DNA from: Synechococcus sp. RSCCF101
Lineage (GTDB): Bacteria; Cyanobacteriota; Cyanobacteriia; PCC-6307; Cyanobiaceae
Length of the DNA: 64,000 nt
Direction of reading: 5' to 3'
NCBI RefSeq assembly: GCF_008807075.1
Contig: NZ_CP035632.1
Span: 1,054,001-1,118,000 of the forward strand
Shown: piece by piece, positions 11,890 to 13,099 of the stretch
How the letters are laid out: each line of letters opens with the position of its first letter
Numbering within the stretch: position 1 is the first letter of the stretch
The notes under the pieces: generated by a model
What the model was told of the DNA's origin: nothing
The model's input: the letters and a program-made list of their open reading frames with translations, nothing else
Database searches by the model: none
Program-made: the position numbers and the translations under genes

Positions 11890-11899
11890 ACCGCCCACC

Positions 11900-12798
11900 G
11901 AGACGTCGCAGAGACATCAGCCGAGACACAGCCCTGGACCAGAACTGAGACCAGGTCGCGACAGTCGAGACCCGCTTCTGGGCAGTCCAGGCAGGGGTTG
12001 ATTCCCGAAGAGGCGCGACCAACGCCCAAGCCAGAGCCTCGCGCCGGATGACGTCGCCCCGAACCTGTCCCTGTCCTGTCCAACACCAGATGGACCCGAC
12101 CAGAACCCCTGCCACAACTGGGATGAAGAGCCCTGCGTCACTGTCGAAGACACAGATACGCAAGCCTCAGGCGCGGTCACCACAACGCAGCGAGTCGGCG
12201 CTCTGACGGCACCGGCCGATCGAATCAACGACATCGACAGCGAACCGACCCCCTCCCGATCCGCGCGAAAGAGACGCCAGAAGAGAAAGAAAGAAACACC
12301 AACTCAGGGAGACACCAACAGGAACTGAAGGAGAACGCCTGAGGGGACGAAAGAGTGAAAGAGAGCGACGGCGCGCGTGAGAGAGCACGGCAGCCGGAGA
12401 GAGAGGGGCCTGCGCGACAACCCAACAGGACGGCCGAGGAGAGTGTGGCCTGCAGGACGCGACAGAGACCAGGAGAACCCAACAACGGCCAGCAGAACAC
12501 GACAGCCGCGAGGAGAGCGATCCCAGCCCACGCAGATGAGACCCAGTCCTGGTCCCATACCCAGACCAGTGCGCGACAACGTCGACCGATTCAGGCCACG
12601 ACCGACCTGCGTGCTCGCGCCCCCGAGAGAGCATCACAGGCCTGGGGAGTCCAAGCGCTCAGGCGGGGAAGACACCTCAGCGCGGCGCCAGAAAAAGGCG
12701 CAGCCAGCTCGCCTGAGACCCGGACCGAGTCCAAGCCCTGATCCCATCCATACACAGCGAGACAAGGCACAGAGCACAGGACACAGGAGCCGAGAGAC
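11900..12798 (+). repeat. Recurrent GAGAC pentamer, all in one orientation
   Basis: GAGAC occurs at 11900, 11911, 11923, 11947, 11967, 12271, 12309, 12465, 12538, 12715, 12759 and 12794. The first three are spaced 11 and 12 bases apart, close to one helical turn, and the next two 24 and 20 bases on. I saw no GTCTC on the + strand in this interval; the reverse form appears only after 12840. With base composition considered, about two to three copies would be expected. Confidence 0.45.
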
Positions 12799-12944
12799 CA
12801 AGCAGGAGCGGGCCGAAGCGCTCGCAGGCATCTCAAGCCGGTCTCATCCTCGGTCTCGCAGACGATCCCACCTGGGATGCCCTGGACTCCTGGGCTGGGG
12901 TGCCTCGCCACACCAGAGCACCGGCGCCGACATCGACGTGCGCC

Positions 12945-12979
12945 TGGGATGTGAGTGCCGGGTGGGATGTGAGTGCCGG
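12945..12979 (+). repeat. Two tandem copies of a 17-base unit (period 18)
   Basis: TGGGATGTGAGTGCCGG occurs at 12945-12961 and again at 12963-12979, separated by one base. Only two copies exist, so it is a local duplication, not a satellite or CRISPR. It lies in the 3' flank of apcD, just beyond its putative terminator. Confidence 0.7.
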
Positions 12980-12996
12980 TCAGCCTCAGACACAGC

Positions 12997-13038
12997 AAAA
13001 CCCTGCCCAGTGCGGCTCAGGCCACAGCAGGGCAGGGT
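12997..13038 (-). terminator. Probable rho-independent terminator of apcD
   Basis: On the minus strand a 9-bp perfect stem (ACCCTGCCC at 13038-13030 pairing with GGGCAGGGT at 13008-13000) encloses a loop of about 21 bases and is followed directly by a four-T run. It begins about 60 bases beyond the apcD stop codon. The loop is long and the T-run short, so efficiency is uncertain. Confidence 0.6.
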
Positions 13039-13099
13039 CGCCTCAACAACGCCAGACGATCAGAGGGGGTCGTAAGGGCGGACGCCCGGGCAGCGAGGA

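Follow-up and report, generated by a model that had tools for sequence, protein, structure and literature searches.

Gene organisation of the locus

The genome of Synechococcus sp. RSCCF101 is a single contig of 2,984,853 bp, and the window, the whole stretch of 64,000 nucleotides analysed here, corresponds to its positions 1,054,001–1,118,000. Within the window, a gene coding for a protein with an RHH and a J domain (J gene) and the apcD gene converge on an interval which is delimited by their stop codons (11889 and 13100) and in which no gene was called (Table 1). The original prediction of a non-coding tract between convergent genes thus holds for 11890–13099: no frame of this interval matches Pfam, no ORF is supported by codon usage and no tRNA was found. 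Both domains of the J protein, RHH_1 and DnaJ, pass the Pfam cut-offs. Its AlphaFold model displays RHH-type helices at the N-terminus (residues 18–31 and 36–48) and a C-terminal J domain; in Foldseek searches the J domain alone was matched, the RHH domain giving no match. Two small repeats lie close to the apcD end: the 17-bp word TGGGATGTGAGTGCCGG, repeated perfectly in tandem (two copies with a period of 18, 12945–12979), and a 9-bp inverted repeat, ACCCTGCCC/GGGCAGGGT (13000–13038), followed by TTTTGC on the minus strand. As read from the sequence, the latter is likely to be the apcD terminator.

Table 1. Features of the J gene–apcD locus of RSCCF101 (window positions)
Feature	Start	End	Strand	Remarks
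RHH + J-domain protein gene (J gene), 357 aa	10816	11889	+	PF01402 at residues 11–47, PF00226 at residues 312–351
Non-coding interval holding the palindrome	11890	13099		1,210 bp; position and rough length kept across the family
29-bp imperfect palindrome, candidate dif: TGCGTCACTGT-CGAAGAC-ACAGATACGCA (11+7+11)	12134	12162		Single genome copy; shared by the intervals of relatives; arm covariation
T-poor tract	12163	12900	+	A203 C241 G234 T60; private to the RSCCF101 genome
apcD (allophycocyanin family)	13100	13600	-	PF00502; 72–80% identity in relatives
TrmA/RumA-type RNA methyltransferase gene (trmA)	13701	15146	+	PF05958 and TRAM; next conserved neighbour

A conserved palindrome in the interval

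A homologue of the J gene is present in 276 of 300 genomes of the family. At the best-matching loci it is followed by 850–1216 bp free of genes (24 relatives) and then by a convergent apcD. This succession, a J-domain gene, about 1 kb of non-coding DNA and then apcD or trmA, is conserved across picocyanobacteria; in Prochlorococcus, trmA lies directly beside the interval and no apcD was found there. The sole element common to the J gene/apcD intervals of relatives is a palindrome with the consensus TGCGTAYCTGY-N7-RCAGRTACGCA. Searched with the strict pattern, the genome collection yielded 72 contigs, nearly all from Synechococcus, Cyanobium, Vulcanococcus or Prochlorococcus. The fetched loci, with a median interval of about 1.0 kb, contained the J gene in 61 cases, trmA in 52 and apcD in 49, and in 43 of 43 loci the J gene and trmA had the same orientation. 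When one mismatch was tolerated, exactly one palindrome was found in RSCCF101 (2.98 Mb) and 143 of 197 good family genomes were positive, mostly with one copy each, while a reversed control pattern was almost never found in family genomes. One copy per chromosome is what is expected of a dif site, though a few genomes carry two.

Variants missed at this threshold occur at the same place in three genera (g63, g79 and g81): TGAGTAACTG..CAGTTACTCA, TGAGTACCTG..CAGGTACTCA and TGCATAACTG..CAGTTATGCA, all diverged and all symmetric. High-light Prochlorococcus (L306–L316) carry a shortened symmetric form, GTACTGYCTNAAAGACAGTAC, about 400 nt past the J gene. In about 255 genomes of other cyanobacterial families, only chance matches on one strand were obtained.

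Several genomes depart from the common pattern. Five (G086, G137, G164, G301 and G319) have two palindromes each; in the first three the second copy is not within the 80 kb around the first (about 20–60 kb on either side), and it could belong to an integrated element or a plasmid. Between the palindrome and apcD of Synechococcus SynAce01 there are a Ppx/GppA-like gene and a transposase of the IS3 type (L172:2729–5521). A contig labelled as a Bifidobacterium breve MAG is probably a contamination, since it bears a picocyanobacterial J gene together with the palindrome. Finally, genus g9 and the genomes G025 and G072 are picocyanobacteria with neither J gene nor palindrome, possibly reflecting a replacement of the system.

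The arms were then compared in 24 distinct sites, all taken from loci found via the J protein and not via the pattern. Every one of the 24 sites has complementary bases at pairs 3/27 and 4/26, with alternative pairs present; the placement of sites within loci relied on resemblance to the consensus arms, which may have favoured symmetry slightly. This does not apply to position 7, which had no part in the scoring: at pair 7/23, 20 of the 24 sites are complementary for 8.2 expected. The two-fold symmetry is therefore under selection, as for the target of a dimeric DNA-binding protein or a recombinase. Compared to the usual dif form (about 28 bp, two 11-bp arms and a 6-bp centre), the palindrome is 29 bp long (11+7+11), its centre being one base longer.

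The palindrome lies opposite the origin in most genomes

The circular distance separating the site (or the J gene) from dnaN was computed for 52 single-contig genomes, with genome lengths partly rounded to 0.1 Mb; its median is 0.482 of the genome. The mean distance is at least 0.44 in 13 of 17 genera (binomial p 1.6e-9 against uniform position). Skew profiles agree in a Prochlorococcus-type genome of 1.796 Mb (G003), whose site is at 301,309: AT skew passes from -0.074 on one side (270–290 kb) to +0.024 on the other (310–330 kb) and reverses back at dnaN.

RSCCF101 itself is an exception: its palindrome, at 1.066 Mb, is 0.362 of the genome away from dnaN. GC skew is flat in this genome and cannot place the terminus. 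AT skew can, and its switch is best fitted at 0.70–0.74 Mb, some 330 kb from the palindrome, whereas in P. aeruginosa the skew switch is described at dif (PMC6199493). An inversion beside the palindrome in the past would explain this offset and is possible. Among the proposals made for the tract was a chromosomal organisation element; the 29-bp palindrome and its position speak for such an element, the T skew does not.

The T-poor tract is private to RSCCF101

Recounting 12241–12540 gave A100 C85 G102 T13, in agreement with the hand count of about 100 A against 13 T that had drawn attention to the tract. The description 'nearly devoid of T' fits 12163–12900 (60 T in 738 bases) and not the whole 1.1 kb (11890–12996: A288 C370 G343 T106). 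The AT skew reaches 0.77, the maximum among 18,308 windows of 300 bp sampled over 464 kb of the genome (sd 0.15), and it also ranks first in this sample for windows of 600 bp (0.65) and 900 bp (0.54). With a skew of 0.466, the interval ranks first among non-coding gaps of at least 300 bp in about 780 kb, gaps being defined by a crude codon-based gene caller; a 552-bp gap comes second with 0.367. When all intergenic DNA of its replichore is pooled, the skew is only +0.012. The T depletion is therefore real and specific to the locus, given these maxima and a pooled non-coding skew close to zero.

In the 24 relatives with a complete interval, AT skew ranges from -0.21 to +0.11 and in none resembles that of RSCCF101, so that the skew is private to the RSCCF101 lineage. 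Across relatives, then, the interval keeps its position without the skew: the T-poor flank characterises the spacer of this lineage and does not belong to the conserved element. No repeats worth mention were found in it. GAGAG and AGAGA words are common, yet not enriched beyond a first-order model.

For the depletion itself we have no good explanation. Transcription-linked mutation, as originally put forward, fails in its genome-wide version because pooled intergenic skew is only about 0.01–0.03; a local version might still account for the skew. We give even chances to an unconstrained spacer having drifted through local strand-asymmetric mutation or slippage of GA/CA-rich words. The sign of the skew matches that of the local replichore (+0.03 to +0.05) and such words are abundant, but their frequency is that of the first-order model, other non-coding gaps are at about zero skew and no such drift is seen in other genera.

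A divergent tyrosine recombinase and no FtsK

For a tyrosine recombinase gene of RSCCF101 (608171–609112 of the contig, 463-aa frame, beside hemH), an orthologue, mostly 50–77% identical, is present in 112 of 121 family genomes, a few of these 112 having weaker, paralogue-level matches only. The catalytic residues R-K-R-H-Y are conserved in 30 orthologues. The protein did not match the NCBIfam models of XerC/D, and its match to the Pfam integrase model was below threshold. Such divergence fits previous reports of divergent cyanobacterial Xer proteins (PMC3025954, PMC8138268). Searches for FtsK/SpoIIIE gave no real match in 11 family genomes, control genomes being positive. The components of an FtsK-controlled XerCD/dif system, XerC and XerD orthologues together with FtsK, are thus not those found here; judged by its genes and site, the system would rather be of the FtsK-free, single-recombinase Xer/dif type known from archaea.

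The distributions of enzyme and site do not coincide everywhere. Of 23 other cyanobacterial families sampled, 13 have the recombinase, and the palindrome was not found in them. Genus g9 has kept the recombinase and lacks both palindrome and J gene, and presence of the palindrome therefore goes with the J gene more closely than with the recombinase. In G025 and G072 all three are apparently absent.

Copies of the palindrome in cyanophages

The strict palindrome was also found in 82 IMG/VR stretches, with exactly one copy in each of the 80 loci examined. These 80 loci contain neither the host flanking genes nor an integrase of the P-SSP7 or Syn5 type; as each locus covers part of a contig, an integrase may lie elsewhere on that contig. 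They share a large terminase, and many also have a T7-type RNA polymerase and ThyX (names given by sequence reading and by the similarity of one contig to cyanopodoviruses). Two palindromes of phage origin, reverse complements of each other, have exactly the sequence of a host site. A complete cyanopodovirus record, AP013539, holds a perfect palindrome (about 12,729–12,757) in a 944-bp gap free of genes and has no annotated integrase. The palindrome is absent from the records of the cultured phages S-RIP1, S-RIP2, S-TIP37, S-B28 (partial records), S-SBP1, P-SSP7 and Syn5, two of which have integrases. No case of a phage integrated at the palindrome was seen among the genomes.

Mobile elements exploiting Xer (IMEX, e.g. 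CTXphi) are integrase-less phages carrying a dif-like site of their host. Here the carriers are T7-like double-stranded DNA cyanopodoviruses, whose integration is conjectural. The phage copies fit phages exploiting the host recombinase.

A probable dif site of picocyanobacteria

Nearly all picocyanobacteria, marine and freshwater, carry the conserved palindrome, usually once and opposite the origin. It is probably a site at which joined chromosome copies are separated, and we consider it likely that the interval carries the picocyanobacterial chromosome-dimer-resolution site (dif). This site is probably served by the conserved divergent tyrosine recombinase without FtsK, a pairing of enzyme and site that we infer. 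Against this reading stand the offset from the skew switch in RSCCF101, the centre of 7 and not 6 bp, and the distribution of the recombinase in g9 and in other families. In the mechanism we envisage, this single recombinase, unlike XerC/D, would bind the arms, assemble as a tetramer on two sites and turn chromosome dimers into monomers, the 7-bp centre serving as overlap. As FtsK is not encoded, synapsis would be controlled by other means, as in archaea, and the adjacent RHH–J-domain protein is a possible control factor. The complete scheme, in which this protein replaces FtsK as the control of the divergent recombinase at the 29-bp symmetric dif and integrase-less T7-like cyanophages integrate or resolve their own multimers there, is tentative and of low probability.

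No report of the palindrome was found in the open-access literature; subscription papers and preprints were outside the search, and a prior description is possible. Prediction of dif had failed in five of five cyanobacteria (Kono 2011, PMC3025954), and a genome paper of 2019 had no dif predicted in the cyanobacterial phylum (PMC6416890).

The closest likeness is with archaeal XerA/dif (PMC2958812): a single Xer-type recombinase, no FtsK and one dif-like site in the termination region. The archaeal dif is 28 bp long and has 14 of 28 bases in common with bacterial dif (PMC2958812), whereas the present site has 29 bp and a 7-bp centre. Unlike archaeal XerA, the picocyanobacterial recombinase falls outside the XerC/D/A NCBIfam models. 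With bacterial XerCD/dif (PMC3025954) the palindrome shares 11-bp arms, a short centre, a single copy and a location near the terminus, but that system uses two recombinases, FtsK and a 6-bp spacer. XerS and its dif-like site in streptococci and lactococci (PMC2958812) also consist of one recombinase and one terminus site; xerS, however, adjoins its own site and needs FtsK, while our candidate gene is about 457 kb away and FtsK is absent. The candidate further resembles the 'Cyan' simple tyrosine recombinases, described as specific to cyanobacteria and proposed to compensate for missing Xer (PMC8138268). We found no target site for that group in its description (PMC8138268), and we liken the candidate to the group as a whole, not to an exact subgroup.

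Alternative readings

The palindrome might instead be the binding site of the adjacent RHH–J protein, marking or organising the terminus in the manner of MatP/matS or ParR, with no recombination. We regard this as unlikely, and equally so its detailed form, in which the RHH domain would occupy the two half-sites and the J domain recruit DnaK. The domain composition of the protein, with RHH_1 and DnaJ at Pfam cut-offs and RHH-type helices in the model, argues for it, as does the association of the two elements: the J gene is present in 61 of the 72 palindrome loci, the remainder being mostly truncated near the palindrome, and both were lost together in g9, G025 and G072. Much of this co-occurrence is nevertheless explained by neighbourhood alone, and phage contigs carry the palindrome with no J gene found beside it. 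It is moreover located at the 3′ end of the J gene and not at its promoter. MatP, a protein of the RHH family, binds many 13-bp matS sites across the Ter domain; here there is a single 29-bp palindrome per genome. In the dif reading, which we prefer, the RHH–J protein may still bind the palindrome, alone or as partner of the recombinase.

The T-poor tract had also been proposed to be a long RNA under composition selection. This, or its being the 3′ UTR of the J gene or of apcD, would suit an extreme composition over about 740 bp and a pair of convergent genes that make read-through RNA possible. It is very improbable: folding of 12163–12900 was slightly worse than that of shuffles on both strands (z +1.05 and +0.66), a scan of the tract revealed no promoter- or terminator-like sites, Rfam had no match in the interval, and outside the palindrome the relatives share neither the sequence nor the skew. 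Neither folding or covariation beyond chance nor conserved sequence, as expected of a structured non-coding RNA, was thus observed. The least probable reading, a bidirectional transcription terminator suggested by an 11-bp inverted repeat between convergent genes, is opposed by the lack of a following T run in RSCCF101, by conservation of the sequence itself (GCGTA-CTG/CAG-TACGC) beyond mere pairing and by the occurrence of one palindrome per genome, at the terminus, and in phages.

Implications

With a candidate 29-bp site, a candidate enzyme and the absence of FtsK, resolution of chromosome dimers becomes testable in highly abundant photosynthetic organisms. In addition, the copies in phages hint at a possible way into host chromosomes for cyanophages that seem to be lytic.
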